From an uncultured Bacteroidota bacterium (GTDB lineage Bacteria; Bacteroidota; Bacteroidia; Bacteroidales; VadinHA17): a stretch of DNA of 42,660 nucleotides. Under the pieces are notes generated by a model. That model was not told where the DNA came from. It worked only from the letters and a program-made list of their open reading frames with translations, and made no database searches. Shown in pieces: positions 3,601-24,979 of the stretch; within the stretch, counting starts at the first letter, position 1; each line of letters starts with the position of its first letter. The stretch lies in NCBI GenBank assembly GCA_903824785.1, contig CAIJYD010000114.1:1-42660 (forward strand), written 5' to 3'. The position numbers were made by a program, and so were the translations under genes.

Positions 3601-3655
3601 CATTGAATTCGCGGGCTGCTTTGCTTAATCTTGTAACCTTGATATCCTCTGTCAT
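647..3655 (-). CDS. infB: Translation initiation factor IF-2
   Basis: IF-2 is the GTPase that brings initiator tRNA to the 30S subunit and promotes subunit joining. The 1002-residue protein starts with an IF2_N helical domain (about 5-55). A long charged Pro/Lys/Glu-rich linker follows (about 60-420). The G domain holds GHVDHGKT at 510-517, then DTPGHEAF and NKID, and IF-2 domains II-IV reach the C-terminus. The linker carries three spaced copies of a VGKIDL-like motif (125-131, 191-197, 297-303). It is longer than the roughly 890-residue E. coli protein, the excess lying in the N-terminal linker, as is common in Bacteroidota. It is the last gene of the rimP-nusA-infB operon, 63 bases after nusA. 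Confidence 0.98.
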
Positions 3656-3718
3656 AAATATGCCTTGCCTTTATTTAAATTTCAATAACACTCTGTTGGT
3701 GAATAGTATCTGTTCGTT

Positions 3719-4957
3719 TTATTCAAACTCAGCCCGGAGAATATTAACAACCTCTTTAACGGTTTCTTCTTCAAGATCAGTTCTTTTTACAAGATCACTG
3801 ATAGATAGATTCAGAACACTTCTGGCGGTATCGCAGCCAATGGCTTTAAGTTCATCGATAATCCAGTCTTCAATTTCATCGCCAAATTCTTCAAGATTGA
3901 CATCTTCTTCATCTTCTCCTCCCGGCTCCCTGTAAACATCAATCTCATAGCCGGTAAGCTGGCTGGCAAGCTTAATATTCAAACCTCCTTTACCGATTGC
4001 AAGCGAGACTTCATTAGGCTTCAGGTATATCTGTGCCCTGAGTGTTTCTTCTACAATTTTTATTGAAGTTATTTTTGCGGGGCTCAGTGCTCTCTGAATA
4101 TAAAGCTGATTGTTTGAGGTGAAGTTGATGACATCGATATTTTCATTGCGTAACTCCCTTACGATACCATGAATCCTCGAGCCTTTCATTCCAACACAGG
4201 CTCCGACAGGATCAATTCTTTCGTCGTACGACTCAACAGCTACCTTGGCCCGTTCGCCAGGTACCCTTACAATTTTTTTAATGGTTATAAGGCCATCAAA
4301 GATTTCAGGAACTTCCAGTTCGAATAACCTCTCAAGGAATACAGGTGAGGTGCGGCTTAAAATGATGAATGGAGTATTGTTTCTCATTTCAACCTTGATT
4401 ACAACTGCCCGTATCGAATCTCCTTTGCGGAAATGATCGGAAGGGATCTGGTCGCTTTTAGGGAGAATAAGTTCATTCCCGTCATCATCAAGAACAAGAA
4501 TCTCTCTTTTCCATACCTGGTACACTTCCCCGGTAACAATTTCACCTATCCTGTCTTTATACTTGATATAGATATTATTTTTCTCAAGATCGAGGATCCG
4601 TGCAGTAAGATTCTGCCTTAACGATAGAATTGCTCTTCTTCCGAAATCAAGAAATTTAACCTCGTCCGAAACCTCTTCACCTACTTCATAATCTTCATCA
4701 ATCTCTTTGGCCTTCGAGAGGGGGATCTGCATTACAGGATCTGTAAGCTCCTTATCGTCAACAACAACCCTGTTTCTCCATATTTCAAAGTCTCCTTTAT
4801 CGATATTGACGATAATATCAAAATTATCAGCTGAACCGTACTTCTTTGCAAGCATGCTTCTGAATACATCTTCAAGAACACTCATCATAGTAGGGCGGTC
4901 AATGTTTTTCAGCTCCTTGAATTCCGAAAAAGTGTCGATCAAATTAACGTTTTCCAT
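3719..4957 (-). CDS. nusA: Transcription termination/antitermination factor NusA
   Basis: NusA binds RNA polymerase and nascent RNA and modulates pausing, termination and antitermination. The 412-residue protein has the expected order: an N-terminal polymerase-binding domain (about 1-125), an S1 domain (about 130-200, around GEIVTGEVYQV), and KH1 and KH2 domains (about 205-345; GMKGSRIHGI and IGKGGLNIKLAS are the KH loop signatures). A short acidic C-terminal stretch follows (GGEDEEDVNLEEFGDEIEDW) and then a helix-hairpin-helix-like end. It sits between rimP (20-base gap) and infB (63-base gap), the classic bacterial arrangement. It lacks the two long acidic repeats of the E. coli protein, as most non-proteobacterial NusA proteins do. 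Confidence 0.98.
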   Translation of the reverse strand: MENVNLIDTFSEFKELKNIDRPTMMSVLEDVFRSMLAKKYGSADNFDIIVNIDKGDFEIWRNRVVVDDKELTDPVMQIPLSKAKEIDEDYEVGEEVSDEVKFLDFGRRAILSLRQNLTARILDLEKNNIYIKYKDRIGEIVTGEVYQVWKREILVLDDDGNELILPKSDQIPSDHFRKGDSIRAVVIKVEMRNNTPFIILSRTSPVFLERLFELEVPEIFDGLITIKKIVRVPGERAKVAVESYDERIDPVGACVGMKGSRIHGIVRELRNENIDVINFTSNNQLYIQRALSPAKITSIKIVEETLRAQIYLKPNEVSLAIGKGGLNIKLASQLTGYEIDVYREPGGEDEEDVNLEEFGDEIEDWIIDELKAIGCDTARSVLNLSISDLVKRTDLEEETVKEVVNILRAEFE

Positions 4958-4977
4958 CTGGTGTAAACCTCTTATTA

Positions 4978-5430
4978 TTACTTAATTGTTAAAATTACTC
5001 TTGTCGATTTTACCTGGTCAAAATTGAAAGAAATATCCTTCACCTCTTTTGATTTCCCTTTAATCTTAAATTCGGCTTCAAGTTCAAAGCCTCCAGGGGT
5101 CACATTTTTCAGTTTTCCTGAATATTTCGATCCTTCATTATCAATAACTTCTGTTTTTCTTCCTTCATTCTTTAAATATTGTTCAAAAACAATAAAGGGT
5201 AAATCAAGGCCGGGGGAAGATACCTGCAATTCAAAATCCTCTTTTTCGCGGTCAAGACTGTTCTCAATATGACGGTGTATTGCTCCGCATTCATCTATTG
5301 TAATTCCTTCATTTTTATCGGCCAGAATAGTGATCCTGTTGCTGTTACTAACTTTTACAGCAACAAGGAAAAGAGAGGTTCCTTTTATGAATTCTTCAAC
5401 TAATTCCTGTATGGTCTGCTTATCTGTCAT
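4978..5430 (-). CDS. rimP: Ribosome maturation factor RimP
   Basis: RimP assists maturation of the 30S ribosomal subunit. The 150-residue product has the two-domain RimP layout: an N-terminal alpha/beta domain with the conserved stretch ELQVSSPGLDLPF (about 87-99), and a C-terminal Sm-like beta domain. It is the first gene of the rimP-nusA-infB operon. It lies directly downstream of a clear promoter (5482-5512) and a 5' hairpin (5453-5472). The ATG at 5430 is the only sensible start, about 45 bases from the predicted transcription start. Confidence 0.95.
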   Translation of the reverse strand: MTDKQTIQELVEEFIKGTSLFLVAVKVSNSNRITILADKNEGITIDECGAIHRHIENSLDREKEDFELQVSSPGLDLPFIVFEQYLKNEGRKTEVIDNEGSKYSGKLKNVTPGGFELEAEFKIKGKSKEVKDISFNFDQVKSTRVILTIK

Positions 5431-5562: not shown

Positions 5563-5591
5563 TTGAAAATCATCAAACAATCCGATATTTG
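5563..5591 (+). promoter_or_regulatory. Probable promoter of the radical SAM gene
   Basis: TTG at 5563-5565 is followed after 18 bases by GATATTTG (5584-5591), one mismatch from TAnnTTTG. Transcription would start near 5598. This makes the in-frame TTG at 5589 impossible as a start codon on this transcript and favours the GTG codons at 5634 or 5643. Confidence 0.45.
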
Positions 5592-5633
5592 CGAATTACT
5601 TTAAACTTCAGTATTATCTTTAAATATTTATCA

Positions 5634-6617
5634 GTGATTACTGTGAAACAGACAGATATCTATGACCCGGCAGACCGGTTAAATTTTGAGGAGTGTACCT
5701 TGTGTCCGAGAGATTGCCACGCTGACAGGTTAAGCGGGGGAGGCGGGTATTGCGGAACTGATGCCGGGCTGAATATTTCAGCAATCTGTTTGCATAAAGG
5801 GGAGGAGCCTTCAATAAGCGGTACAAACGGGATCTGTAATATTTTTTTTGCAGGATGTAATCTTCAATGTATTTTTTGCCAGAACCATCAGATAAGTCAT
5901 AATGGTTTGGAGAGCAGAAATGGGTTATCTGACCTGAATCCGGTGCTTGACCGGATAGAGGAAATCCTTTCACAGGGGGCTTCGTCTATTGGTTTCGTTT
6001 CCCCTTCGCATGTTGTACCGCAGGTAAAGGCAATCATCAATGGGCTGAAAACAAGAGGACTTCGTCCGATAACAGTTTATAATACAAATAGTTATGAAAA
6101 GGTCGAGACAATACGCAGCCTTTCCGGATTAATTGATGTGTATCTTCCCGATTTTAAATATGTTACTCCGGGAATTGCTTCAGCTCTTTCCGACGCTGTC
6201 GATTATCCCGCGGTGGCTCTGCGGGCTCTCAAAGAGATGTATTATCAGAAAGGTTCTGTTTTAAGGAGAGATGACAATGGCATTGCCGAGAACGGGATGG
6301 TGATAAGGCATCTTGTTCTTCCGGGCCATGCTGAAGAGAGTAAAAATGTTTTGAGAACAGTGGCAGAGGAGTTGTCTCCCGGGGTTCATCTTTCTCTAAT
6401 GTCTCAATATCACCCTGTCGGCCGGGTTAAAAATCATCCGGTTCTGAATCGTAGTCTTTACAAAGAAGAGTATGATTCAGTTGTTGCAACAATGGAAGAA
6501 CTGGGTTTCAGAAACGGATGGGTACAGGAGATGGATAGCCAACTCAACTACCGGCCCGACTTCAGCCGTAATCAGCCATTTGAGCAGGATCTAAACCACA
6601 ATGAGTTTATATACTGA
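5634..6617 (+). CDS. Radical SAM protein, PflX-like (COG1313 type)
   Basis: This is a radical S-adenosylmethionine enzyme of the pyruvate-formate-lyase-activase-like PflX group. Substrates of the group are not established. From the GTG at 5634 it has 327 residues. It begins with a Cys-rich segment (CTLCPRDC) and a GYCG motif, then the conserved HKGEEPSISG. The radical SAM cluster motif CxxxCxxC follows (C75, C79, C82 in FFAGCNLQCIFC). There is no nearby ATG: GTG 5634 or GTG 5643 are the plausible starts, while the upstream TTG at 5589 lies inside the apparent promoter. No pfl gene is adjacent, so a role in activating a glycyl-radical enzyme cannot be claimed from context. Its stop lies 3 bases before the stop of the convergent ABC permease gene. 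Confidence 0.88.
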   Translation: MITVKQTDIYDPADRLNFEECTLCPRDCHADRLSGGGGYCGTDAGLNISAICLHKGEEPSISGTNGICNIFFAGCNLQCIFCQNHQISHNGLESRNGLSDLNPVLDRIEEILSQGASSIGFVSPSHVVPQVKAIINGLKTRGLRPITVYNTNSYEKVETIRSLSGLIDVYLPDFKYVTPGIASALSDAVDYPAVALRALKEMYYQKGSVLRRDDNGIAENGMVIRHLVLPGHAEESKNVLRTVAEELSPGVHLSLMSQYHPVGRVKNHPVLNRSLYKEEYDSVVATMEELGFRNGWVQEMDSQLNYRPDFSRNQPFEQDLNHNEFIY

Positions 6618-6620
6618 GGA

Positions 6621-7340
6621 TTACATGAATTTTTCCCGTTTCTGCAGATTATAAAGTGCAGACAACAGGAAAATTATTGATCCGGTTATCAGGATAATCC
6701 GGTTTTTAAGTGTGATAATCGCCCAGGTTGTCTCATTTAAATCGTAGGGAAGATCATAAGGATTGAGGAAAATATTCCACTGGCTTTTACGGAGAGAATC
6801 ACTCAGTATCATAAAAATCAAACCAAAAATGATCATCAGAACTGCTGTCCCGTTTCCGTTTCTGATAATTGTCGACAACATAAAGGCCATTAATCCCAGA
6901 AATATAACAGGTAACATAATCTGAGCTGTCATATTAACGAATCTGAATTTCACAATCAGAACAGAAGAGACAAAGGTAAAAACAACCATAATAAGGAAAG
7001 CAATCACAAAGATCAGGAGTACCCTTACGAGCCAGACTTTATATCTGTAGTTGGGAATTCCGAAAAGGATCTCAATGGTTCGGGCATCCTGATCGTTCTG
7101 AATTCCGAAAGCTGAAGGATAAAAAACAAGAAGAAGGCCGGAGAAGAGAAAGACACCATAAAGATCTTTCATGTTTGGGACGTCCACATCAAAGACATAG
7201 ATGACTGATAACCCCATGTAAAACAGAATGGAACCTGCCAGAAACCAGATGAATTTATTTGCAAAGATTATCCTCAGGTTATATACTATCATTTTGTAAA
7301 TGAGAGTAGAAATATTGTATAAGTTATTAGATTTCATCAT
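6621..7340 (-). CDS. ABC-2 type transporter permease, small
   Basis: This 239-residue protein is almost entirely membrane, with about six transmembrane segments (near 29-50, 60-80, 105-130, 140-160, 165-185 and 210-230). A cytoplasmic stretch reading DARTIEILFGIPNYRYKVWL resembles the coupling-helix region after TM2 of ABC-2 permeases. It is the last gene of the seven-gene export operon, and its ATG overlaps the stop of the RND-ABC fusion gene (ATGA), which implies translational coupling. The natural inference is that it is a membrane partner for the ATPase domain at the C-terminus of that fusion, perhaps pairing with the permease part of the 1154-residue protein. The substrate is unknown. 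There is no signal peptide or extracytoplasmic domain. Confidence 0.85.
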   Translation of the reverse strand: MMKSNNLYNISTLIYKMIVYNLRIIFANKFIWFLAGSILFYMGLSVIYVFDVDVPNMKDLYGVFLFSGLLLVFYPSAFGIQNDQDARTIEILFGIPNYRYKVWLVRVLLIFVIAFLIMVVFTFVSSVLIVKFRFVNMTAQIMLPVIFLGLMAFMLSTIIRNGNGTAVLMIIFGLIFMILSDSLRKSQWNIFLNPYDLPYDLNETTWAIITLKNRIILITGSIIFLLSALYNLQKREKFM

Positions 7341-10300
7341 TTAACGGTTTCATTATTTTCAGACCCCTTATAATCTTTTCTTCTCAGAAGCCACAGGTAA
7401 GCGTCCTCCAGACTTGGGTTTGCGTTAATGGCTCCATCCCAGGGTGAAGATTCGGAAATAACTCTTACTCTCACATTGTCGCCTTCCGACATGTGATGAA
7501 CGACGAGGTTCTTTTCGACAAAAGCTCCAAAATCTTTAGCCGGAATATTGAACTGCCAGACATGACCCTCGGCCTCTTTTGTCATTTCGATTGGTTTGCC
7601 GAAGTATCTCAGTTTGCCTTTATTCAGAACTGCTACCTGATTGCAGGAGCTTGATATGTCCTCAATAATATGTGTTGAAAAGATTACAACTCTTTCGCGG
7701 CTCAGTTCAACAAGAAGATTCCGGAACCGGATACGTTCTCTCGGGTCGAGCCCGGCAGTTGGCTCATCGACAACGAGAATTCGGGGCAGGTGTAACAGGA
7801 TTTGTGCAATACCCATCCTCTGCTTCATTCCGCCTGAATATGAACCGATTTTATCGTTCCTGCGATCTTCCATATGCACTGCTTTCAGAACGTAGGTAAC
7901 TCGCTCATCTCTGATCTTTACATCGATTATGTTTTTCAGCATAGCCTGGTAATGCAGATATTCATGTGCTGTCATATTTTCGTAGCTGCCGAATTCCTGT
8001 GGCAGATAACCGATAAGGCCCTGCAGCTCTTCTCTCATCTTCTGTGTGTCGAGGCCATTGATCCAGACCTTCCCGTAACTCTGCTCCAGAATTCCGCAGA
8101 TTATTCTCATCAGAGTGGTTTTTCCTGCACCGTTGGGGCCAAGAAGACCAAACATTCCATTCCCTATATTCAGAGAAACACAGCTTAATGCTTTAAATGG
8201 CTTCTTCTTTTTTCCGATAAGCGGAACAGCTGCAACAAGTTTATATATTGCCTTTCTGATCCCTTTAAATCTGCCTTCAAGCCGGTATATATCAATATTT
8301 TCACGGGTCAGTTTCTGGCCGGTCTTATAGATAAACAGACCGGAGAACCACAGAAATCCAAGTATCAGAACAATTACAATATTTTCCCACGATTTCCAGA
8401 ACCATATCAGGTTAAGGAGAGGGATTATCCAGAAAAACAGAAAATCGGCAAACATGGATATTTTTATCAGCCATTTTTTTTCTCCGTTTGCTGAAAGGCT
8501 GGCAAAGAGTTCCTTCAATGCCGTCCATACTCCTGAGAGGAAGAACCATGTTCCTATGCTGAAAAGAAAAATCCAGAATCCTTTTGTCAGATAGAAATAG
8601 GTGAAATAGATAATGAATCCAAGCAATGGCAACTGCCACATTATCTGATTCATATCTTTCCACGATTTGTATTCTTTTTCAAGGCCGAGCCGTTTTCTGA
8701 TTCTTGCACCTGCTTTCCATTCCCTTGTCCAGCGGTTTTCCCTTTCATATATTTTAACCAGACTCTGAACATAAATGTTTATATTCTCGCTGTTTGGGAT
8801 AACTGTCTCTCTCGCTTTTCGCAGGCTGTTCATTACGAACCATGTACCTGCCGGGATTATGATCAGAACCAGGATTGATGTTATGAGCTTCCAAAGAAAT
8901 TTATCTATAGAGGTGTAAATAATAAATATCATCAGGAAAAACAGAAGGAACTGTATCGCTTTATTTTTCCAGCCGAGTGAATAGAACCATTTCAGGGCAT
9001 TCTCAAGACCCGTATAAAAAGTTGGAATGAATACCAGTGTAAGAAGAGTGCTGAGAGTTAATCCTCCGATAACTGTTATTGCAAATGAAGCTCCGATTGC
9101 CGAAACAAATTCAGCCTGGCCCATTGCAAGAGGAACCATTGCAATTACTGTTGTTGAGGCAGTTATCAGGATGGGCCTCAATCTTGCCACTCCGGCTGTC
9201 ATGAGTGCCCGCTGTACACGGTTACCTCTTTTCCGGAGAATATTGGTATAGTCTATCAGTATTATCCCGTTATTCACCACTACCCCAAGGAGGATAAGGA
9301 ATCCTGTAAGAGTATTTGCATTGAGGAGGGAATTTCCGGTAAGTATCAGTGCAATAAGCGATCCAAGGGCAGCAAGCGGGATGCTGAACATCAGAACTAC
9401 CGGCGTTGCAAGTGATTCAAAAACAGCAGCAAGAATCATAAAAATAAGAAGAAACGCAACTCCGATGAGATAGTAGAAATCTTTCAGCTGATCCTCCTCA
9501 TGAACGATCTCAACAGCAATTCCTGAAGGGATATTAAGCCCGGCAACAATTGATTCTATTTCAGCCCTTGCTCCTTCAAGAAGATCTTTGGAGTTTTTGA
9601 TCTCCTCGGTGAAATTATAGGTAACTGTAACCCTTTTTTCCTGGTTCTCCCTGTGTATGTTTCCCATTCCGGAAGAGAAGACGATTCCTGAAAGTTCTTC
9701 CATCTCCATCACCGCCCCGTTGGCTGCATTCACTTCAAGGTGTTTGAGATCGTCAATTGTTTTATCTCTGTTTTCGTTTGTCAGGCTGTCCTGCACGGCG
9801 TACTTAATCATTATGTCGTAGTTCTCTGTTCCCTGCTTGAAAGTTGCACCGGAGGAATATTCTTTTCCGAATGCCGACAGGGAAGAGGAGAGGTTGCTCA
9901 GGGTAAAGTTATTTCTTCCCATATAATCCATATCGAAAAGAAGATGCACTTCCGGCTTATTATCCTGAACATTGATATTGGAGCTGTTTATTGTTGAAAG
10001 ATCGTCGACATAAGTTTTAATATCGTCAGCCAGATTTTTCATCTGCTCGAAGTTCTGTCCTTTGATAATCACACTCTCTTTTGCCGAACCGATACCGAGA
10101 AGGTTCATAAAATCCGACCCCGGATTATCTGTCTCCCCACCGCCTCCGCCACCTGTAAAACCACCGGCTGTAGAAAGTTCATCCATGGTGACTTCAGCGG
10201 AAGAGATTTTTGCTGTCTTCTCCGAGATCTCATTTTTAATTTCAGGGAGCGATCTTTTGCTTTTTTTATTCCAGTCTTTTGAAAGATTGATTGTTACGGT

Positions 10301-12103
10301 TGCTTTTTCTTCTTCGATACGGCTTACGATATCTTCTTTTTCAGGGAGAGATTTAAGTCTCGATTCAATTTCTGCCACAACCGCGTCTGTCTTTTCAAGG
10401 GTGGCTCCTCCGGGCATTGTTACACTCAATCTGAAGTTGGGCGTTTCTACCTCCTGTGTGGTACTTATACTTAAGGTAAGGCTGATAAGTAGTGCGGCAA
10501 AGAAAATTACAAGAGTTCCGATTATGGTAGATGCCGGATTTCTCATACTTGCTTTTAACACAAGATGATATCCCTGTATGGTTCTGTCGTGAATGGAGAG
10601 TTTTTTAAATATATCAGAATCGCTTTTTGAGGATCTTGTAAGAAGAAAATATGTTGCCATCGGAATAAACAGCAAGGCAATAATAAGAGATATTGTAAGT
10701 GTTGATATGATTGATACACCTATATTCTTTCCAATCATTTTCACCATAAAATTGTCAGAGAAAATGAAAGGCATGAACACAATAACTGTAGTGAGAGTTC
10801 CTGCAAATATGGATCTCCAGACTTCAGTAGTACCTTGTTTTACAGCTGTCTCGTTGTCTTTTCCCTGACCCGCCAGCCGGTAGATATTCTCAAGAACAAC
10901 CACTGAGTTATCGACGAGCATCCCTATTGCAAGTGCCATTCCTATAAGAGTAAGGCTGTTAATGGAGATATCAAATGCATAGAAAAAGTTGAAAGCAGCA
11001 TATACTGAAACAGGAATTGAGACTGCAATGATTGCAACCAGCCTGATATTTCTGAGAAAGAACCACAGAATCATTATCGCCAGAAACCCTCCCGTAATTG
11101 CGAGATTAATTATCTGATTAATATTCTTTTCCATTATTTCGGCAGTATTGTTCTGGACAACTACCTCTACTCCTGAAGGTTCAAGTTTTTTGTTCAGCTC
11201 CTTAACCTGCTCAATTGCATCATGGGAAAGATCTATCAGGTTAGCCTGATTATCATTTACAAGGGTTATTGTAACAGCATCGAGACCGTTAACTCTGCTA
11301 TAAGAGCTCTGTTCCTTTACTCCGAAAAAGATCTCTGCCACATCGCGCAAAAGAACCGGCCCGGATTTTTTAACAATTATATTTCCTATTTCCCTCACAT
11401 CGGTATATTCTGATGTGACATTTACAAATAATTCATTGCTGCCTTCAGTTACTTTCCCTGCAAAAGTTTTGTTTGCACCATTGTTGTTCAGCAGGTTTCT
11501 GATCTGCCCCATTGTAATGCCATTAGCCTTGCAGGCGTTCTCATTGAGCCTTATCTCTATTGAGTTCTCCTGTCCGCCGTAAACCTGAACTCCGGCAATA
11601 CCGTCTATATTTTCAAGTTCGGGTTTAATCTCTCTGTCGGCAATATTCCTGATCCTGTCAATACCTCCTTCTCCTCTCACCTGAAGCTCCATGAACTGGT
11701 TGGTGAGCTGTTCAAGATCGATCTTGATTACATTAATAATAAATTCAGCCGGGATTGAGCTTTTAACAATATCTATCTTTTCCTGCAGCTTAAGGTTGGC
11801 ATATTTGAGATCGGCCTTCTGGTTGTAGTAGATCATTATTGTGCCAAACCGCGATGAGATATTCGATTCTATCTTTTCAATCCCCTCAAGTGTTCCTATT
11901 GCCCCCTCAATAGGGATAATAGCCTGGTTCTCAATATATGAAGGATCCATTTCAAGAGGAGTTCCGACCTGAACTATTAATGTTGGAAGCTGTGCATTCG
12001 GAAACAGTTCAACAGCAAGTTTTTTATACGAGACATAGCCAAGCATAGTTAGCCCCAGAAAGAGCATACTGATAAAAATTCTTCTTTTTAAAATAAAATC
12101 CAT
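7337..12103 (-). CDS. RND efflux pump fused to a membrane linker and an ABC ATPase domain
   Basis: One uninterrupted frame of 1588 residues. Residues 1-1040 form a complete RND (HAE-type) pump: TM1, two large periplasmic loops and twelve expected membrane segments. TM4 holds VDNS with Asp398, but the second acidic residue of AcrB is Asn399. In TM10 the AcrB lysine position is Asn944. Residues about 1045-1290 add roughly six membrane segments in three hairpins, with a basic amphipathic stretch between the first pair and the rest. Residues about 1296-1588 are a full ABC ATPase: Walker A GPNGAGKTT (1322-1330), Q-loop YLPQ, signature YSGGM (1422-1426), Walker B with Asp1446/Glu1447 and switch His1478. 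A short Gly run lies in the second periplasmic loop (about 647-657). The ATPase resembles the separate ATPase at 21324-22217. A dual-energy exporter, or a scaffold tying an ABC transporter to an RND pump, is inference. Confidence 0.9.
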   Translation of the reverse strand: MDFILKRRIFISMLFLGLTMLGYVSYKKLAVELFPNAQLPTLIVQVGTPLEMDPSYIENQAIIPIEGAIGTLEGIEKIESNISSRFGTIMIYYNQKADLKYANLKLQEKIDIVKSSIPAEFIINVIKIDLEQLTNQFMELQVRGEGGIDRIRNIADREIKPELENIDGIAGVQVYGGQENSIEIRLNENACKANGITMGQIRNLLNNNGANKTFAGKVTEGSNELFVNVTSEYTDVREIGNIIVKKSGPVLLRDVAEIFFGVKEQSSYSRVNGLDAVTITLVNDNQANLIDLSHDAIEQVKELNKKLEPSGVEVVVQNNTAEIMEKNINQIINLAITGGFLAIMILWFFLRNIRLVAIIAVSIPVSVYAAFNFFYAFDISINSLTLIGMALAIGMLVDNSVVVLENIYRLAGQGKDNETAVKQGTTEVWRSIFAGTLTTVIVFMPFIFSDNFMVKMIGKNIGVSIISTLTISLIIALLFIPMATYFLLTRSSKSDSDIFKKLSIHDRTIQGYHLVLKASMRNPASTIIGTLVIFFAALLISLTLSISTTQEVETPNFRLSVTMPGGATLEKTDAVVAEIESRLKSLPEKEDIVSRIEEEKATVTINLSKDWNKKSKRSLPEIKNEISEKTAKISSAEVTMDELSTAGGFTGGGGGGETDNPGSDFMNLLGIGSAKESVIIKGQNFEQMKNLADDIKTYVDDLSTINSSNINVQDNKPEVHLLFDMDYMGRNNFTLSNLSSSLSAFGKEYSSGATFKQGTENYDIMIKYAVQDSLTNENRDKTIDDLKHLEVNAANGAVMEMEELSGIVFSSGMGNIHRENQEKRVTVTYNFTEEIKNSKDLLEGARAEIESIVAGLNIPSGIAVEIVHEEDQLKDFYYLIGVAFLLIFMILAAVFESLATPVVLMFSIPLAALGSLIALILTGNSLLNANTLTGFLILLGVVVNNGIILIDYTNILRKRGNRVQRALMTAGVARLRPILITASTTVIAMVPLAMGQAEFVSAIGASFAITVIGGLTLSTLLTLVFIPTFYTGLENALKWFYSLGWKNKAIQFLLFFLMIFIIYTSIDKFLWKLITSILVLIIIPAGTWFVMNSLRKARETVIPNSENINIYVQSLVKIYERENRWTREWKAGARIRKRLGLEKEYKSWKDMNQIMWQLPLLGFIIYFTYFYLTKGFWIFLFSIGTWFFLSGVWTALKELFASLSANGEKKWLIKISMFADFLFFWIIPLLNLIWFWKSWENIVIVLILGFLWFSGLFIYKTGQKLTRENIDIYRLEGRFKGIRKAIYKLVAAVPLIGKKKKPFKALSCVSLNIGNGMFGLLGPNGAGKTTLMRIICGILEQSYGKVWINGLDTQKMREELQGLIGYLPQEFGSYENMTAHEYLHYQAMLKNIIDVKIRDERVTYVLKAVHMEDRRNDKIGSYSGGMKQRMGIAQILLHLPRILVVDEPTAGLDPRERIRFRNLLVELSRERVVIFSTHIIEDISSSCNQVAVLNKGKLRYFGKPIEMTKEAEGHVWQFNIPAKDFGAFVEKNLVVHHMSEGDNVRVRVISESSPWDGAINANPSLEDAYLWLLRRKDYKGSENNETVK

Positions 12104-12125: not shown

Positions 12126-15100
12126 TCAGAGCTTTACAATATCTTTATCTGCCCCTCGGAGCCATCTGCTGAAACTGTCGAAAACCCAGTAGACACATGG
12201 AATTACTACAAGTGTCAGGAGGGTGGAAGAGACCAGTCCTCCGATAACAGCCAGAGCCATTGGAGCTCTGAGAGAAGCGCTTTCGCCGATACCGATTGTA
12301 AGAGGAAGAAGTGCAAGGATTGTTGTCAGACTGGTCATTAATATTGGTCTTATTCTCTGAGTACCAGCAATAACAATTGCCTCTTTTTTATCCATCCCGG
12401 TTTCTCTCAGCTGATTTATACGGTCAATAAGCAGAATGGCATTATTCACGGCAATTCCTCCGAGCATAATTATCCCGATATATGCCATCATATTCAGTGT
12501 TTCTCCGGTGATGAAAAATGTGAGAATAGTGCCAACGCCTGCCAGTGGAATGGTAAGCATTATTACAAATGGCTGAATTATTGATTCAAATTGTGCTGCC
12601 AGAACCATAAATACAAGAATAAGTGAAAGTATCAGGGCAAAGGAGAGATTTGAGGTGGATTCTTTCCTTTTCAGCTCCTCGCCGGTAAATTCAAGCTTGT
12701 AATCCACAGGGAGTATTACTGCTTTAAGTGCTGTCCCGGCTTCTTTAATCACCTGATCGAAAGCTGCGTTTGCATTTACCATGGCATAGATGTAGCATGT
12801 TCTCGACTGGTTCCTTCTGGTGATCTCCCTGGGGCTGATAATTGTCTTGATCACAGCAAGTTCGCTGAGAGGCACTTTAACGCTTCCGGCAGTGATCATC
12901 AGATCGCGAAGCTGTTTCAAAGAGAGATCTCCAAGCTTTATGGTGATATCTTTCATTTCGCCGTCCTTCTCAAAGCTTCCGGCTGAAGAACCCGATAAAT
13001 AACTTTTAATCTGGTTTATAATGCTCTCTACGGTAACACTGTAGTAGCTGGTTTTAAACCTGTCGATAGCCACTTCTACTTCAGGCGTCCCCTCATCGAG
13101 AGAGGTTGTAATATTATAGAGGCCGGGGTTACTTACCAGTATGTCTTTTGATTCATTCACTATTCTCTCCAGTTGGCTGTAATCTTCACCAGATACCTCA
13201 AGAGAGAATGGGGCTCCTGTTGTGCCAAGAGAAGACTGAAGAGCTGTTTCATCTCTTGCGAAAGATATTTCGATGCCGGGGATTGTCTTCAGATAATTGC
13301 CAATAATTGCAATTGCCTGTTCCGTTCCGGAGGCAAAATCATCAGCGAGAATAACCTTGATTGAAGCGGTATTTTCCCCTTTGGCAGCAGAGGTCTGGTT
13401 TAGCGATGAGTTATTGTCGGATCCGGCCTGGCAATAGATCATTTTTACCTTATTCCCGAGCAGCTCCTTTATTATATCACCTGTTTTGGAAACTGTACTT
13501 TCGGTACGCAGGAGGGAGGTGCCTTCCGGAAGTTTAATATCTACACTGAACTCGGCTGATTCAGATTTTGGCATGAATTCGCTTCCCAGCTGTGGTATAA
13601 GCAAAGCAGATGAAACCATAAGTAAAACAGATAAAAAGATGACGAGGATCCTCTTCTCAATTGTCTTTCTGAGAAATTTCTCATACCATTTGAAACGCAT
13701 GGGAGCCGCTATCTCAGACTTTATCTTTTTATCAGAAAAAAGTGTTGATACCAGCATTGGAATAACCAGCATGGCAACCACTAAAGATGAAATGAGGGAA
13801 AACGCCACTGTCCATGCCTGATCTTTGAACATCTCACCTGATGCCCCATGGAGATAAACAATCGGAAGGAAGACAACAATTGTGGTAACGGTAGATGCCG
13901 TAATTGCACCACCAACTTCTCCGGTACCTCTTATAACTGCCTCTTTCAGAGCGACTCCCTCTTCACGGAGGCGTGTTATATTTTCAAGAACAACGATAGC
14001 ATTATCGACAAGCATACCGGCTCCCAGAGCCAGCCCTCCCAGTGTCATTATGTTGAGGGTGAGATGATTGAAATACATAAGGTTGAATGTAGCAATGATA
14101 GAGACAGGTATTGCTACACTGATAACCAGTGTGGTGCCAATTCTTCGGAGGAAGATGTAAAGTATAAATACTGCGAGAAGAATTCCGATCAGAAGTGTAT
14201 TCTTTACTTCCCCAATTGCATTATTGATGTATGCCCCCTGATCCTGTACCCTGATAAATTCATAACCGGGTAAAGCTTTTTCAAGATCGGTAATTGCTGT
14301 TCCCAGACTCTTTACCACATCAACGGTATTGAATTTCGGTTCTTTGTAGATTGAGAGACCGACACATCTTTCTCCATTGATTGTTACAATATTATCAGGC
14401 TCTTTGTTTGCGAATTTTATCGTGGCTATATCTCTCAGATAAACCGGCACTCTTCCGGATACTGTGGCTGATGCAGAGCCGGTTGCCGCTGTTTGACCGG
14501 TAGCTGTTGCCTGTTTAAAGCCTACGACTATATTCTCCAGATCATCAATATCTTCAAGGACGCTTACCCCTTTTACGGTGTATTTTAATCCCATATCCAC
14601 AATTGATCCGCCTGAGACATTCCGGTTATAATTAGTGATCTGGGCAGCTATGGCGTCTGAAGTAAGTCCAAACGATTCGAGAATATATTTGTTTGTTTCA
14701 ATAACCACTTCGCTTTCCTCGGTGCCGGTAAGTTTGACATCGGCAACTCCTTCAATCCGTACCAGCTCATTTCTGATATAGTTTTCCCCAACTTTCCTTA
14801 GTTCATCCATATTGTTAATGGCGGGGTTTTTCAATCCAACAACCATAACCGGGGCGGCATTGGGATCGTATTGCGAAATGGTAAAATCCTCAAGATCTGA
14901 ATTCTGGCTGAATGAGTTCAGCTCTTTCTGAAGATCAAGGAAAGCTTCATCCATATCCTTATTCCAGTCGTATTCAACCGTAATAGTAGCTGATCCGACC
15001 TGTGCCACTGAAGAGACCTGAACCACATCGCTCTGCCGCATAGCGAGCGATTCGATCTGATCAACATAGTTCTTTTCAATCTCTTCAGGTGGTTTTTCGC

Positions 15101-15257
15101 CTGCTTTTAATTCGATATAGATCTTTGGATTGTTGAGATCAGGGAACAGATCGGTTCCCAGTTTGCCAAAGGAGATAAACCCCAGAAGTGCTATCCCCAG
15201 CACAAACATTAAGACCGTAACGGGATATTGTACAGCGAATCGGGCAATCCTGTTCAT
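12126..15257 (-). CDS. RND family efflux permease
   Basis: A standard-length (1043-residue) RND pump of the HAE type, expected as a trimer in the inner membrane that passes substrate to the adaptor and TolC-like channel encoded beside it. It starts with TM1 at about 10-32. Two large periplasmic loops (about 35-340 and 570-870) and twelve membrane segments follow. The proton-relay region differs from AcrB: TM4 reads GMLVDNAIVV with Asp418 followed by Asn419, and TM10 reads AVNNAIL with Asn938 where AcrB has lysine. As far as I know this pattern is typical of SwrC-like and Bacteroidota RND pumps and does not by itself mean inactivity. It lies 5 bases after the adaptor gene and 22 bases before the RND-ABC fusion gene. 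The two RND proteins may form a mixed pump, as MdtB/MdtC do, but this is unproven. Confidence 0.95.
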   Translation of the reverse strand: MNRIARFAVQYPVTVLMFVLGIALLGFISFGKLGTDLFPDLNNPKIYIELKAGEKPPEEIEKNYVDQIESLAMRQSDVVQVSSVAQVGSATITVEYDWNKDMDEAFLDLQKELNSFSQNSDLEDFTISQYDPNAAPVMVVGLKNPAINNMDELRKVGENYIRNELVRIEGVADVKLTGTEESEVVIETNKYILESFGLTSDAIAAQITNYNRNVSGGSIVDMGLKYTVKGVSVLEDIDDLENIVVGFKQATATGQTAATGSASATVSGRVPVYLRDIATIKFANKEPDNIVTINGERCVGLSIYKEPKFNTVDVVKSLGTAITDLEKALPGYEFIRVQDQGAYINNAIGEVKNTLLIGILLAVFILYIFLRRIGTTLVISVAIPVSIIATFNLMYFNHLTLNIMTLGGLALGAGMLVDNAIVVLENITRLREEGVALKEAVIRGTGEVGGAITASTVTTIVVFLPIVYLHGASGEMFKDQAWTVAFSLISSLVVAMLVIPMLVSTLFSDKKIKSEIAAPMRFKWYEKFLRKTIEKRILVIFLSVLLMVSSALLIPQLGSEFMPKSESAEFSVDIKLPEGTSLLRTESTVSKTGDIIKELLGNKVKMIYCQAGSDNNSSLNQTSAAKGENTASIKVILADDFASGTEQAIAIIGNYLKTIPGIEISFARDETALQSSLGTTGAPFSLEVSGEDYSQLERIVNESKDILVSNPGLYNITTSLDEGTPEVEVAIDRFKTSYYSVTVESIINQIKSYLSGSSAGSFEKDGEMKDITIKLGDLSLKQLRDLMITAGSVKVPLSELAVIKTIISPREITRRNQSRTCYIYAMVNANAAFDQVIKEAGTALKAVILPVDYKLEFTGEELKRKESTSNLSFALILSLILVFMVLAAQFESIIQPFVIMLTIPLAGVGTILTFFITGETLNMMAYIGIIMLGGIAVNNAILLIDRINQLRETGMDKKEAIVIAGTQRIRPILMTSLTTILALLPLTIGIGESASLRAPMALAVIGGLVSSTLLTLVVIPCVYWVFDSFSRWLRGADKDIVKL

Positions 15258-15262: not shown

Positions 15263-16315
15263 TTATTTAATAATTTTAACCTTCGACTTGTTGCTAAGTG
15301 TTTCAAAACCACTTGTTACAACACGCTCATTTTTAGCCAGTCCCCTGGTGACTTCAACATCGGTCAGGTTTTCAAGACCTGTTTCAATAACTCTTTCAGC
15401 AGCTACTCCCCGGTCGACGATAAAAACAGTTTTCCCCCTTTGGCGCGAGAGAATAATGCTTTTTGCTATAACAATTACAGAATCTTTATGGTTTGTAACT
15501 ATGTCGGCTTTAACAAACATACCGGGACGAAGAAGCAGATCGGGGTTATTGACGGAAATTTTTCCTTTAAATGTCCGTGTATCAGAATCAATGGCCGGTG
15601 ATAATTGCGTTATACTTCCGATAATCGTATCATCAGGAATTGTATAGTTTGTAAGGTTCACTGTCTGTCCGGGTTTAATGGCAGAGATATATTTTTCAGG
15701 AAGCTGCACATCCATATACATTATCTGATAGTCCATTATTTTAGCGATTTTTGAACCTGTTGCAATCTGGGTACTCTGGGTATAATATGGCAGGTCGACA
15801 ATAACACCATCTATCGGAGCAACTATTCTTGTTTTTTCGAGCTGAAGTTTTGCATTTTCAACTGTTGTTTTGGCATTTGCAAAGTTTATACTTGCTGTCT
15901 TGAGATCCTTCAGGGTAACCCCACCCTTTTCGTAAAGCGACTCCTGTTTTTTAAGTTCGCTTTCCGATAGTTCAAGATTGAGTTCATTGGTTTCGAGCTT
16001 AATGGAATTTACATATTCCTTATCCTCGAGCCTGGCAATAAGCGCGCCTGCCTTAACCCTGTCGCCAAGCTGCCATGGCCTGCCTGCTGACGGGTTGTTT
16101 TCCAGATAATAGTATGCAGTAATCTTTGAGGTTAGTTCAATCTCCCCCTTTGGCAAAGCAGTACCTGTTGTATTAATGAATTCTTCAATTGGCCTCAGTT
16201 TAAGGTCATCGACCGAAACAGGTATTTCAACATCGGCATTCAGGTTCTGGTCGGTATTCTTGCAGCCGGTAAATATCATCAGCACAACTGCAATAATGGA
16301 AATACTTTTCTTCAT
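15263..16315 (-). CDS. Membrane-fusion protein (periplasmic adaptor), lipoprotein
   Basis: A 350-residue HlyD/AcrA-type adaptor linking inner-membrane pumps to the outer-membrane channel. The N-terminus is a lipoprotein signal with lipobox FTGC and Cys18 as the expected lipidation site. Next come a split barrel-sandwich (lipoyl-like) region, a helical hairpin (about 100-160, rich in Lys/Glu/Leu), the second lipoyl half (RIVAPIDGVIVDLP) and a beta-barrel with a membrane-proximal domain (DTRTFKGKISVNNPDLLLRPGMFV is the usual signature region). It is the only adaptor gene in the operon although there are two RND genes, so both pumps presumably share it. It lies 18 bases after the TolC-like gene and 5 before the RND gene. 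Confidence 0.93.
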   Translation of the reverse strand: MKKSISIIAVVLMIFTGCKNTDQNLNADVEIPVSVDDLKLRPIEEFINTTGTALPKGEIELTSKITAYYYLENNPSAGRPWQLGDRVKAGALIARLEDKEYVNSIKLETNELNLELSESELKKQESLYEKGGVTLKDLKTASINFANAKTTVENAKLQLEKTRIVAPIDGVIVDLPYYTQSTQIATGSKIAKIMDYQIMYMDVQLPEKYISAIKPGQTVNLTNYTIPDDTIIGSITQLSPAIDSDTRTFKGKISVNNPDLLLRPGMFVKADIVTNHKDSVIVIAKSIILSRQRGKTVFIVDRGVAAERVIETGLENLTDVEVTRGLAKNERVVTSGFETLSNKSKVKIIK

Positions 16316-17844: not shown

Positions 17845-20800
17845 TCAATTCTGTTTCACCCATTTTATTGCATCGCCAATAACAGTTTTGCCGGTAGTCA
17901 GGTTTGTAAGCATAACTTTGGCAGTATCGCGAGAGAGGTAATATCTGCCAAGAATATTCCATCCGCTCTCTGCTTTTTCATAATCAACTGTTATCTCTTC
18001 CATGCCATCATCGTGGTAGACTTTATAATGCATCTCTTTGTAAGGTGATTCTGCCTGCTGCTCTCCCATTGGCCCTCCGGGACCGCCCGGACCTCCACCT
18101 CCCCCAGGTCCTCCTCTTGTTCTTGGCATTCTGTCAGCACCCTTGCCGATATAGCAAAAAACGTCATAATAACCCGGCTCTGTGATAATAGCAGCCCAGG
18201 TAATTGTTTTATCGCCTTTCCCTCCCCGTGTATAAACGGCAGACCGGACATATTTCCCAAAGTAAGAAGATAGTACAACAGGCTGCCAGTATTCAGGAAT
18301 GTCCCAAACGCTTACCTGTTTATATGTTTGTCCATATCTATTTTCCAGTTTGAAAAGTTTTTTAAGAGGACTTACAGCGTTTTGTCTGCCTGAAATAAAT
18401 CCGGAATCCTCATTATCAACAACTATTTCGGAAGGATCAATAAACGGAGGGGTTGATGAGAGAAGCTCTTCTCCTGTAAATTCTTTTGTGGTTCCTTTAG
18501 TTTTTATTATGTCATTTATCGGCATATTGATCTCTCCGGGTATGTTTTTCGCAAACAGGGTATTTATCAGCATTGCCCTTGGCCTGGAATCGAGCACAAT
18601 CCCTACTTTTTTTGATTCGCGCGGACCCATAAGCACTATCCTTGAAATATCAGAAGCTTCCATGCCACGGCCCTGTGACGAAATGTTAAAATTTCCACCG
18701 CCGGGGCCTCCTCCCTGCTGCATTGGTCCTCCCATCTGACCCCGGCCTCCACCTCCCGGCCCCCCTGTGCGAAATGAAATGTTAAAGAGACCTGCAACCG
18801 GTTCAGGGTTTGAAGCAACGAACATTACCTGGAATCTTGATCTGTCGCCAACGATAATCTCATTTACTTTTAAATCTGTGAACAGAAATCCGGGTTGCTC
18901 TTTCCCTGTGAACCAATTACTCAGGTAGGGGTAGAAATCAAATCCGAATTTATCCTTAATGGTGCTGTTGAACTGTTGAATATCAATTGCTTTGAAACGC
19001 GAGATCTCCATATATTCCGAAAACCATGTCTTAAACTCTTCAATCCCTGCTTTTGATCTTAAAAGATTAAAAAGCCAGTCGCCTTTTACAGCCAGAACTG
19101 TTCTTACAGTATCGCCGCGGGGGTTTTTTGCTAGAAGATCCTTAAAACTGATCTCTTTAAGGATAAGATTCGCTTTGTCATTATCGGAAAGAGTCCCAAG
19201 CATCGCCTGAAATCCTCCGCGTGGTCCCAGTGGGGATATCTGCTGAAGATGCGATTCAAAAACAGCATTTATTACAGGGTATTCGGTGGAGTAGAAATTA
19301 TTTTTAAAGAAATAGAAGCTGGGCCCCAGCCGGTATCTTGTGGGTTCATTTGAGGCGACTCCGTTTATGAACCTGAAGTTTTCGCCACTGATAAATGTAT
19401 TCCTGATAAAATTATTAAAGATCCTTACCTTCAATTCTTTATCTGTAATGATCTGATTATTCCTTGCCATTCTTTTCTTCTGGCTCGTAAATTGTCTGAG
19501 GAACCCGGCTTCATTAATTGTCGATAACTTCTCAGGCAACAGTACCATTGACGGCTGCACTTCCGCCCGTGTCTGAGTATTCTTCTTTGGAAATGAATAG
19601 AATTGAACAGGGACTTCAACCAGACTCAGCGTTTTAAATGGATATTTTGTTGAGAAATTTGTTTCAAGCTCTCTCATAATCCCTGAAATCAGATTCGGTA
19701 ATGTATCTTTTATCTCTTTTAAATCTTTTTTATAATAGTCGTGCCCCGGGAAGTAATAGCTTATATAATTTATTGAGTCGACCCTGATTGTATCCGACTT
19801 GTAATTTCCCAATACCAGTGTAAGTCCTGTCAGAGGGCTGTCAGTCTCGAAAAGATCATATCCATCTTCAGATTTCATCCGCCCCTGCGAAACTGCAGAG
19901 AGACCGTTTTCTTTTTTGACGCGAAGGGTATAATTGGTGAAATTAATTGATATCCTGGCCGGGTTTGAGGGATAATAGTTAAGAGAAGTGACAGGATACC
20001 AATGAGTCTCAGGGGTTAAGAGAACAAAGTTATTCTTCAGGAAAGACTCTCTTTTATTAACGTTGAGCATCGCAATCCTGTATGGTGACTCTTTGACATT
20101 GTCGCTGTAATTAGGATAGCAGAACGATTCACTTATTGATCCCTGGTATGAAATAAGGATACTGTCGCTTTCTCCCTGATTCAGAGACCTTCCCGGGTCA
20201 ATTTCAATTATGTGATTTGTCTTTTTGAAGCTCAGATCCTTTCCCTGAGTGGTGATCCTGATAACTTTCAGAGATGGGTTAAGAGAAAAAAGATAACGAT
20301 CGAGAGGCTCCCTGTTATTGTTTTTTATCTTAAGTCTTGCAGAAGCTTCAAATGATTCTCCTTTATGGCTGAATTCAATTGAGGCATCAGTAAGGGTTGC
20401 AAAATTCCTGTTTTCAAACTGCCTGTTAGTTTCGATGGTAATATTCTTCTCTTCAACATCTTTCCTGTGAACAGAATAGGTGTTGAATGCGCAGACTACT
20501 GCACCCGCAAGAAAAGTGATAAGGAATCCGATTGTAAGGTTCCGGTGTATTATTGATTGTGGTAATCGCTTGAAAAGAAGCACTGTTGTAAGAACAAGTG
20601 CCAGACCAAGAAAAAGATAGAGCAGCCTCTGGTTTATGATAAAGCTGAGGTTGTCAAAGCCAATAACTCCGGATTTGAAAACGGGAAGACCGAAAGCCAT
20701 ATAATCGAAAATGGATCCCATTCTGAACCAGAGATAGAACATATTCAGTGCAGCTGTTCCAAGAAGTAACAGGAAAGTAAGGGCCTGATTTCTGATAATC

Positions 20801-21309
20801 GACATCAGCACAAAGGCAAGGCCTAGGCTGAATACAATTGTAGGGACGGAAATGATGAGAAGATAGTAGATATATGCCATGAAATCAACCGACATGTTTT
20901 TCGAAATGATATTCACGGTAAGGCCTATGGAAAGGATTATCAGATCAAGTCCGAGGAAGAGGCGAAGGATTCCCCATGTCTTACCTATAATATATTCAAA
21001 ATTTGACATCGACCGGGTATAGAGTACTTCATTGGTATCCAGCTTCTTATCCCTTTTAAGAAAATCGGCGGCCAGAAATATTACAACAATAGCCTGCCCT
21101 ATATTGAGCAGGTACAGGTTTATGAGGGGAAGAGAGGCAGGGATTGAGACCATATCCCATGATTCATCTCCGATTGGAGAATAGAGTCCGATATTTAAAA
21201 AGGTGAAGATAAAGAGGGCCCCGATTGAAAAAAGCCTGAAGAACCAGCTTCGCCTCAATGTCTTTGCTTCATATTTTGCAACTGTAGTTATGTTATGAAG
21301 AAATGCCAT
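17845..21309 (-). CDS. ABC-2 permease with M1-peptidase-like (degenerate) and golvesin/Xly-like domains
   Basis: A 1154-residue protein with three parts. Residues 1-275 carry about seven membrane segments with an ABC-2 permease pattern (DTNEVLYTRSMSNFEYIIGK after TM2). Residues about 285-840 resemble the extracytoplasmic M1-aminopeptidase-like module often fused to ABC-2 permeases (TPETHWYP resembles the family's WYP region). No HExxH zinc site is present, so it is probably not a peptidase. Two Gly/Pro-rich inserts follow (849-872 and about 1066-1080). The last 140 residues or so (GYYDVFCYIGKG ... SGWNILGRYYL ... GDAIKWV) match my memory of the golvesin/Xly carbohydrate-binding-like fold, with the second Gly insert inside it. 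It lies 14 bases after its ATPase gene. An extracytoplasmic ligand-binding or chaperone role is inference. Confidence 0.82.
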   Translation of the reverse strand: MAFLHNITTVAKYEAKTLRRSWFFRLFSIGALFIFTFLNIGLYSPIGDESWDMVSIPASLPLINLYLLNIGQAIVVIFLAADFLKRDKKLDTNEVLYTRSMSNFEYIIGKTWGILRLFLGLDLIILSIGLTVNIISKNMSVDFMAYIYYLLIISVPTIVFSLGLAFVLMSIIRNQALTFLLLLGTAALNMFYLWFRMGSIFDYMAFGLPVFKSGVIGFDNLSFIINQRLLYLFLGLALVLTTVLLFKRLPQSIIHRNLTIGFLITFLAGAVVCAFNTYSVHRKDVEEKNITIETNRQFENRNFATLTDASIEFSHKGESFEASARLKIKNNNREPLDRYLFSLNPSLKVIRITTQGKDLSFKKTNHIIEIDPGRSLNQGESDSILISYQGSISESFCYPNYSDNVKESPYRIAMLNVNKRESFLKNNFVLLTPETHWYPVTSLNYYPSNPARISINFTNYTLRVKKENGLSAVSQGRMKSEDGYDLFETDSPLTGLTLVLGNYKSDTIRVDSINYISYYFPGHDYYKKDLKEIKDTLPNLISGIMRELETNFSTKYPFKTLSLVEVPVQFYSFPKKNTQTRAEVQPSMVLLPEKLSTINEAGFLRQFTSQKKRMARNNQIITDKELKVRIFNNFIRNTFISGENFRFINGVASNEPTRYRLGPSFYFFKNNFYSTEYPVINAVFESHLQQISPLGPRGGFQAMLGTLSDNDKANLILKEISFKDLLAKNPRGDTVRTVLAVKGDWLFNLLRSKAGIEEFKTWFSEYMEISRFKAIDIQQFNSTIKDKFGFDFYPYLSNWFTGKEQPGFLFTDLKVNEIIVGDRSRFQVMFVASNPEPVAGLFNISFRTGGPGGGGRGQMGGPMQQGGGPGGGNFNISSQGRGMEASDISRIVLMGPRESKKVGIVLDSRPRAMLINTLFAKNIPGEINMPINDIIKTKGTTKEFTGEELLSSTPPFIDPSEIVVDNEDSGFISGRQNAVSPLKKLFKLENRYGQTYKQVSVWDIPEYWQPVVLSSYFGKYVRSAVYTRGGKGDKTITWAAIITEPGYYDVFCYIGKGADRMPRTRGGPGGGGGPGGPGGPMGEQQAESPYKEMHYKVYHDDGMEEITVDYEKAESGWNILGRYYLSRDTAKVMLTNLTTGKTVIGDAIKWVKQN

Positions 21310-22544: not shown

Positions 22545-22573
22545 TTGCATTATGAAACTAATTCCTATTTTTG
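22545..22573 (+). promoter_or_regulatory. Promoter of the HD-domain gene and probably the lpx genes
   Basis: TTG (22545-22547), an 18-base spacer and TATTTTTG (22566-22573, followed by CA) match the Bacteroidota consensus. Transcription should begin near 22580. The in-frame ATG at 22552 lies between the two promoter elements and therefore cannot start translation from this transcript. Confidence 0.65.
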
Positions 22574-22590
22574 CAGATAAAAATCTTAAG

Positions 22591-23844: not shown

Positions 23845-23860
23845 CCAATACAAAAGTTAA

Positions 23861-24898: not shown

Positions 24899-24971
24899 TT
24901 TTATACTTCAGTCGGAAGTGAATATGTTGAAATAAATTTAGTTATAAGACAATTCTCTGTATTGTTCGAAA

Positions 24972-24979
24972 TATTTTTG
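24972..24979 (+). promoter_or_regulatory. Possible -7 element upstream of lpxC-fabZ
   Basis: TATTTTTG in the 122-base gap before lpxC matches TAnnTTTG, 41 bases before the ATG at 25021. No TTG is present at the normal -33 distance, so readthrough from the HD/lpxD promoter may suffice. Confidence 0.3.

Follow-up and report, generated by a model that had tools for sequence, protein, structure and literature searches.

The tripartite pump MacA-MacB-TolC is not known to contain an RND subunit. It is described as ABC-driven in the available parts of PMC8277102 and PMC5985334, with the MacB ATPase fused to its own permease (PMC8277102). MdtABC, an exporter without an ATPase, uses two different RND subunits assembled as an MdtB2C heterotrimer, according to the available part of PMC4338810. 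The part of PMC5719797 at hand keeps RND and ABC exporters apart as two classes, each with its own energy source.

Here we describe a locus, found in a 42,660-nucleotide stretch of DNA (the window) from an uncultured Bacteroidota bacterium, in which an RND subunit and an ABC ATPase are fused in a single gene, RND2::ABC2. The locus resembles those of AcrB/MdtB-type RND pumps (PF00873) in that ACR_tran scores over its cut-off in both RND1 and RND2 and that adaptor and TolC genes adjoin them, but differs in the fused ABC ATPase and in the position of AcrB Lys940, never Lys in 69 RND1 and 78 RND2 proteins. Like the MdtABC locus it has a pair of distinct RND genes next to each other, a likeness of adjacency, whereas MdtABC lacks an ATPase. 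With MacA-MacB-TolC it would have in common an ATPase, a periplasmic adaptor (MFP) and TolC in one exporter, although in MacB the ATPase is joined to a permease. Finally, separate-gene ABC-2 transporters (GldA-type, NosFY) have ATPases that ABC1 and ABC2 match, and six of eight PERM1 orthologs match ABC2_membrane_2 at E up to 1; the differences are the scores of the GldA model, which fall under its cut-off, and an ABC2 ATPase predicted to be split by membrane helices. Judging by titles and the beginnings of abstracts, we recognised no description of an RND-ABC fusion system among the open-access papers that our searches listed.

A conserved fusion of RND and ABC domains

The fusion gene is read on the minus strand, the plus-strand translation of 7337-12103 being full of stops. 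A preliminary description of this DNA, in which the strand was not stated, had claimed a single continuous frame of 1588 residues with a full RND pump in its N-terminal part, about six extra membrane segments and an ATPase, and all of these were borne out: Pfam ACR_tran covers residues 2-1031 with 548.8 bits (cut-off 28), ABC_tran covers residues 1311-1450 with 96.9 bits (cut-off 25), and the membrane segments are recovered both by hydropathy and as six helices in an AlphaFold2 model. The positions it gave for the ABC motifs are also correct (Walker A GPNGAGKTT at 1322-1330, signature at 1422-1426, Walker B D1446/E1447 and His1478). The protein is already present in databases, as indicated by source names such as 'multidrug efflux pump subunit AcrB/ABC-type multidrug transport system ATPase subunit'.

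RND2::ABC2 is a real fusion, and a conserved one. When GTDB species genomes were scanned for relatives of the junction, 292 stretches came up, the best 80 of which were kept; all 80 are Bacteroidota by title. Among these best 80 of 292, 78 loci have the join in one frame and contig ends interrupt the remaining two; the linker is present, invariant residues included, wherever the join can be read. The search for relatives with the same join, many of which were found, five in strain-titled records, left the fusion standing. Whole-length identity to seven relatives (order, class and phylum) is 47.9-53.6%. By part, in seven distant relatives, the ATPase is best conserved (63-67%), followed by RND2 (48-54%) and the linker (29-36%). 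Nearly all of 27 relatives compared retain Walker A, signature, Walker B and H-loop; L027 is truncated, and L029 carries Arg in place of the Walker A Lys. Possible unfused versions were also seen: among 120 listed tail proteins, five without ACR_tran lie on contigs longer than 20 kb.

A block of seven genes

The fusion belongs to a conserved gene block, ordered ABC1, PERM1, TolC, MFP, RND1, RND2::ABC2, PERM2, whose members all lie on the same strand, 5-26 bases apart or overlapping by 4 bases (Table 1), and whose parts co-occur. Taking the loci with room for the neighbour in question (from the best 80 of 292), PERM2 is the next gene after the fusion in 70/70 and RND1 precedes it in 60/60 (56 by the strict rule plus four with overlapping stop-to-stop frames), while MFP is found in 56/56, TolC in 49/49 and the tail of PERM1 in 49/49. 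All seven genes stand in order in five loci (L048, L049, L054, L055, L057), and six of them in L051, L052 and L053, where the fetched stretch ends. Clear matches to the linker, PERM1 and PERM2 coincide in the same six of 395 genomes of the phylum; the linker count leaves out G256 and G412 (E 8e-4 to 1e-3), L056 and L058 showing no genes of the block, and the PERM1 count leaves out seven more genomes whose matches were weak (E 2e-6 to 5e-4).

Table 1. Features of the locus; positions are those of the window.
Feature	Position	Strand	Basis or remark
PERM2, 239 aa, about six membrane segments, weakly identified candidate ABC-2 permease	6621..7340	-	start overlaps fusion stop by 4 bases
RND2::ABC2 fusion gene	7337..12103	-	1588 aa + stop, ATG start
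Predicted remainder of ABC2 ATPase, residues 1303-1588 (Walker A, signature, Walker B, H-loop)	7340..8197	-	ABC_tran
Predicted insertion of ~183 residues (1120-1302), four predicted membrane helices, A-loop to beta-2	8198..8746	-	
Predicted beta-1 and A-loop of ABC2, residues 1110-1119 (IYVQSLVKIY)	8747..8776	-	profile, AlphaFold2 strand, structural alignment
Predicted two-helix hairpin, residues 1045-1098	8810..8971	-	AlphaFold2 (model of 1030-1588: helices 16-36 and 40-69); hydropathy
RND2 domain, residues 1-1035	8999..12103	-	ACR_tran 2-1031
RND2 TM10 relay, Asn944-Asn945 (AcrB Lys940-Asn941)	9269..9274	-	NN in 77/78, SN in 1
RND2 TM4 relay, Asp398-Asn399 (AcrB Asp407-Asp408)	10907..10912	-	alignment; DN in 76/78
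RND1, 1043 aa	12126..15257	-	ACR_tran 731.6 bits (cut-off 28)
MFP, periplasmic adaptor, 350 aa	15263..16315	-	TIGR01730 194.5 bits (cut-off 94.9)
TolC-type outer membrane factor, 494 aa	16334..17818	-	OEP 149.6 bits (cut-off 22)
PERM1, 1154 aa, with a membrane domain at the N terminus, a large periplasmic part and a Golvesin_C end	17845..21309	-	
ABC1 ATPase, 297 aa	21324..22217	-	ABC_tran 109.6 bits (cut-off 25)

ABC1 and ABC2 are sister paralogs, forming sister clades in the tree with support 100. The GldA model TIGR03522 (cut-off 402.6) gives 188 bits for ABC1 and 169.3 bits for ABC2, both under the cut-off. Membership of a defence system was rejected, as the models matched the ATPase proteins only, via their ATPase motifs.

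By its orthologs, the N-terminal domain of PERM1 appears ABC-2-like and the protein a candidate ABC-2 permease. ABC2_membrane_2 matches six of eight PERM1 orthologs (E up to 1, best 2.1e-7) and exceeds the cut-off in one of five full PERM1 proteins (L048); the copy in the window matched no ABC2 family at E up to 1. The Golvesin_C end scores 47.1 bits. A weak M1 peptidase match, under the cut-off, was seen in one of five PERM1 orthologs (L054, 0.0038). HExxH is absent in seven of eight PERM1 proteins and lies elsewhere (residue 886) in L049; none of the eight has it in the presumed M1-site stretch, and a working M1 peptidase was rejected on these grounds. PERM2 is more weakly indicated as a candidate ABC-2 permease: ABC2 families match only 2/20 members, under the cut-off (best E 0.0017), and Acyl_transf_3 matches 4/20 (0.011). 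Next to 28 other ABC loci in the genome, a PERM2 profile gave no match (best E 0.4). Homology of PERM1 and PERM2 was rejected because their profile comparison was not significant.

Membrane helices predicted within the ABC2 ATPase

In the preliminary description a complete ABC ATPase followed the membrane linker. Its motifs stand as described, but its start does not, for the putative beta-1 strand and A-loop fall at residues 1110-1119, within the linker: the ABC2 ATPase is predicted to begin there, to be interrupted by about 180 residues and to resume near 1303. A beta-1 profile, anchored by hand and made from 25 of 28 distinct ATPases (L177, L181 and L184 were excluded because a clear A-loop aromatic was not seen), ranks the 1110-1119 segment first in 27/27 fusion proteins. 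The AlphaFold2 model of residues 1030-1588 places a beta strand at exactly these residues, and the structural alignment starts at residue 1108, such alignments spanning the ATPase range. This model was built on 82 rows, 64 fusion proteins and 18 ABC ATPases, the latter trimmed to begin past the A-loop and so unable to place beta-1; an earlier 26-row model (mean pLDDT 69.3) was set aside. A continuous beta-1 to beta-2 segment appears, by profile and predicted structure, to be absent from ABC2. With beta-1 and the A-loop in mid-linker, the extra part would consist of a two-helix hairpin and a four-helix insertion inside the ATPase.

The inserted region (1120-1302) matches no Pfam family over its cut-off, and a PDB sequence search found no relative of it; as the linker also has no profile match with PERM2, its being a degenerate ABC-2 permease was rejected at the sequence level. 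To our knowledge, four membrane helices within an ABC ATPase, between A-loop and beta-2, would be an unusual form of membrane anchoring.

A possible hybrid exporter

The reading that we favour, with a probability of about one half, is that an ABC transporter is integrated into an RND-MFP-TolC exporter, making a hybrid exporter across both membranes. ABC1-PERM1 and ABC2-PERM2 would be the two unlike halves of a single ABC-2-type transporter and, ABC2 being covalently within the RND2 subunit, this transporter would be docked at the inner-membrane end of the RND1/RND2-MFP-TolC duct. The hairpin and the four inserted helices may keep ABC2 against the membrane, ATP would drive export of substrate from the cytoplasm or the inner leaflet, and the RND-MFP-TolC part would receive it for passage through the outer membrane. 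We infer the ABC1/ABC2 and RND1/RND2 heteromers, as we do the pairing with PERM1 and PERM2, the docking and the hand-over. For a trimer of two RNDs MdtB2C is a precedent, and inner-membrane pumps that potentiate trans-envelope efflux are a further one (both in the available part of PMC4338810).

The preliminary description had suggested either the coupling of two energy sources or the tethering of an ABC transporter to an RND/TolC duct. The tether fits the gene block, with its second ATPase, two candidate ABC-2 permeases, MFP, TolC and second RND. The predicted split of the ATPase, the two candidate permeases and the departure of both RNDs from the AcrB relay had escaped that description. Counted against the hybrid exporter were the weak identity of PERM2, the PERM1 of the window without an ABC2 match, the absence of the AcrB relay pattern and the Walker A Arg of L029.

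Relay positions and other readings

By alignment, RND1 and RND2 depart from the Asp407-Asp408-Lys940 relay pattern of AcrB. The Lys940 position is Lys in 0/69 RND1 and 0/78 RND2, where Asn or Ser always stands instead; Asn also occupies the Asp408 position in 59/69 and 76/78, respectively, while Asp-Asp and Lys are found in 28/34 comparator RNDs. Transport by MexB is lost on charge changes such as D407N or D408N (PMC5719797, in the part at hand). The absence of the pattern makes proton drive of the second stage doubtful and would speak for a different reading, in which the ABC module is the motor of RND subunits that gave up AcrB-type proton coupling, with ATP binding and hydrolysis by ABC1/ABC2 cycling the RND via the hairpin and the inserted helices. 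The ATPase being the best conserved part of the fusion would agree with this. However, the Asp407 position is Asp in 69/69 RND1 and 78/78 RND2 and the TM11 Arg is kept, which may leave a proton path of some kind; six of the 34 comparators, all without the fusion, likewise depart from Asp-Asp/Lys or are gapped there; and PERM1 and PERM2 would be left without a clear role. We consider an ATP-driven RND unlikely.

It is also doubtful that the locus encodes two pumps in one operon, each acting on its own on the same or related compounds, with a fusion that does no more than fix their dose or co-location. The same-strand, closely spaced genes would suit such an arrangement, and a linker that is the least conserved part is what a mere tether would lead one to expect; yet that linker is kept, with invariant residues, in all readable joins (78 of the best 80 of 292), and the ATPase fold seems to be threaded through the membrane part. 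Still less probable is a regulatory ATPase, with ABC2 gating or assembling the RND trimer and ABC1-PERM1 a separate transporter: the weak identity of PERM2 would speak for it, but the ABC motifs are kept in nearly all relatives compared, and ABC1 and ABC2 have the sister relationship seen in heterodimers. An assembly artefact or chance fusion, which a source genome in 135 contigs might suggest, has a negligible probability and is refuted by the same join in 78 of the best 80 of 292 loci, strain-titled records (L132, L141, L149, L153, L155) among them.

Significance

The locus of RND2::ABC2, for which we prefer the hybrid exporter, appears to encode, in some Bacteroidota, an exporter across both membranes of a kind not yet studied. 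It joins RND and ABC in one polypeptide within a gene set kept together across part of a phylum, which makes it directly testable whether ATP drives or assists an RND/TolC duct, and culturable species such as Prolixibacter denitrificans, Mangrovibacterium marinum and Sunxiuqinia indica are among the carriers. If the ATP-driven reading were true, this would be an RND exporter powered by an ABC ATPase within its own subunit, with the coupling helices inside the ATPase fold.

Results

RND2::ABC2, the fusion of an RND pump, a membrane linker and an ABC ATPase, is a frame of 1588 codons with an ATG start, in which Pfam ACR_tran matches residues 2-1031 and ABC_tran residues 1311-1450, both well above cut-off. 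The motif coordinates that the preliminary description had given for its ATPase proved correct. The seven genes of the block are co-oriented, with intergenic gaps of 5-26 bases and a 4-base overlap between RND2::ABC2 and PERM2.

Genes of the block and their positions in the window
Gene	Position	Strand	Remark
ABC1	21324-22217	minus	
PERM1	17845-21309	minus	
TolC	16334-17818	minus	
MFP	15263-16315	minus	
RND1	12126-15257	minus	
RND2::ABC2	7337-12103	minus	
PERM2	6621-7340	minus	last of block

One flank of the block is rimP-nusA-infB (window 647-5430); the other (22552-27196, opposite strand) has matches to an HD protein, LpxD, an LpxC-FabA-like protein and an LpxA-like acyltransferase, and the HD and LpxD neighbours are retained at the same-genus locus L057. 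Beyond PERM2, on the plus strand, lies a 342-aa frame with a TTG start (5589-6617) and a Radical_SAM match below cut-off (E 0.00041, 21 vs 29.5 bits).

The candidate permease PERM1 consists of an N-terminal membrane domain, a large periplasmic part and a terminal Golvesin_C. ABC2_membrane_2 matches the membrane domain in 6/8 orthologs, with no such match in the window's own PERM1. PERM2 has about six membrane segments and only weak matches to ABC-2 families (2/20 members), so that its constant position after the fused ATPase is the stronger argument. One PERM1 ortholog shows a weak trace of an M1 peptidase, at most a hint that peptides might be exported.

Own genome apart, matches to the fusion with E = 0 were found in 23/35 same-genus and 5/24 same-order genomes. 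The linker, the junction region with four predicted membrane helices inserted within the ABC2 ATPase, is clear in 6/395 phylum genomes (own counted; two marginal linker and seven weak PERM1 matches left out), and clear matches to both PERM1 and PERM2 occur in the identical six. Gene order was read at eleven loci (L048-L058). Five (L048, L049, L054, L055, L057) have the complete seven-gene order, three (L051, L052, L053) have six block genes up to the end of the stretch read, and L050, whose contig starts within the fusion, has the fusion tail and PERM2. The marginal linker matches, L056 and L058, showed no block genes at their loci.

A scan of GTDB 220, one genome per species, matched 349 stretches, 292 of them encoding a relative, and the best 80 of these were retained. 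Going by record titles all 80 are Bacteroidota, five being strain-titled (Sunxiuqinia indica, Mangrovibacterium marinum, Prolixibacter denitrificans, P. bellariivorans, Gaoshiqia sediminis). The RND-ABC join lies in a single frame in 78 of the 80, L116 and L129 being cut by contig ends, and 60 frames are full-length. At every locus with room among these 80, PERM2 comes next after the fusion (70/70), RND1 precedes it (60/60: 56 by the strict rule plus L084, L100, L104 and L115, with overlapping stop-to-stop frames), and MFP (56/56), TolC (49/49) and the PERM1 tail (49/49) are found. Identity to the window's fusion in seven distant relatives is 63-67% for the ATPase, 48-54% for RND2 and 29-36% for the linker.

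Four fusion copies (L092, L098, L102, L110) are frame-broken in the RND half, through either decay or sequencing error, and in the same-genus fusion L029 the Walker A Lys is replaced by Arg. Among 120 tail-like proteins listed, five on contigs >20 kb lack an RND domain (P0180, P0194, P0208, P0214, P0235) and may be broken genes, called starts or true split versions. The tail protein P0198 (64% identity) carries the name of a Spirochaetales MAG, reflecting either mis-binning or transfer.

ABC1 and ABC2 form sister clades (support 100 jointly, 99 each) in a midpoint-rooted tree built from the cores of 6 ABC1, 6 ABC2 and 28 other ATPases, the latter from the own genome only. Apart from itself, the best own-genome match of ABC1 is ABC2, at 231 bits, the next reaching 137. 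Relatives of RND1 outside the block, at up to 437 bits, are closer to it than RND2 is (311 bits), so RND2 is no recent copy of RND1.

The proton relay of AcrB comprises Asp407, Asp408 and Lys940 (passages of PMC4403515), and in MexB D407N, D408N and like charge changes abolish transport (passages of PMC5719797). The Asp407 position is Asp in 69/69 RND1 and 78/78 RND2. At the Asp408 position, Asn predominates in RND1 (59/69; Asp 9, Ser or Thr 1) and in RND2 (76/78; Asp 1, Ser or Thr 1). Lys is absent from the Lys940 position: of 69 RND1, 56 carry Asn there and 13 Ser, and of 78 RND2, 77 carry Asn and one Ser. Asp-Asp plus Lys is found in 28 of 34 comparators without the fusion, a non-random sample of six own-genome RNDs and 28 loci topping the RND1 search; of the rest, three carry Arg (L006, L210, L216), two show other deviations (L002, L008) and one has a gap (L199). 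Set against these comparators, the relay change is a trait of the RND2::ABC2 system, although some other RNDs deviate as well.

The own-genome RND L008 (G000:C42:2984-9055) has D-N in TM4 and T-D in TM10, unlike AcrB, and near it lies another RND frame, 1109 aa long (G000:C42:8824-12066). The RND frame at L002 (G000:C52:37380-40466) is 1468 aa long, ~440 aa beyond domain length. Frames of ~1410-1500 aa are numerous in other genomes; the L002 frame may be a fusion of RND-TolC type, unrelated to RND2::ABC2.

Discussion

The component parts of this system are members of known superfamilies, and the fusion protein is already in databases under composite names. We know of no other instance of an RND-ABC combination, or of membrane helices within an ABC ATPase. 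Searches of an open-access library and passages of one review yielded no description of the system.

The gene block, the co-occurrence, the fusion and the sister ATPases most likely reflect one machine, a hybrid exporter. That the RND is instead driven by ATP seems unlikely, and two pumps sharing one operon are just as improbable; a regulatory role for the ATPase is very improbable indeed.

The hybrid exporter, whose stoichiometry, docking and hand-over we infer, would be a single machine spanning both membranes. A precedent for pairing RND1 with RND2 is MdtB2C (passages of PMC4338810); by this analogy one might guess that each trimer contains a single fused subunit, to match a single ABC1. 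ABC1-PERM1/ABC2-PERM2 would form a two-sided ABC-2 transporter, which the covalent ABC2-RND2 joint would hold on the RND1/RND2-MFP-TolC duct. ATP would drive the substrate from the cytoplasm or the inner leaflet, and the duct would then carry it outward.
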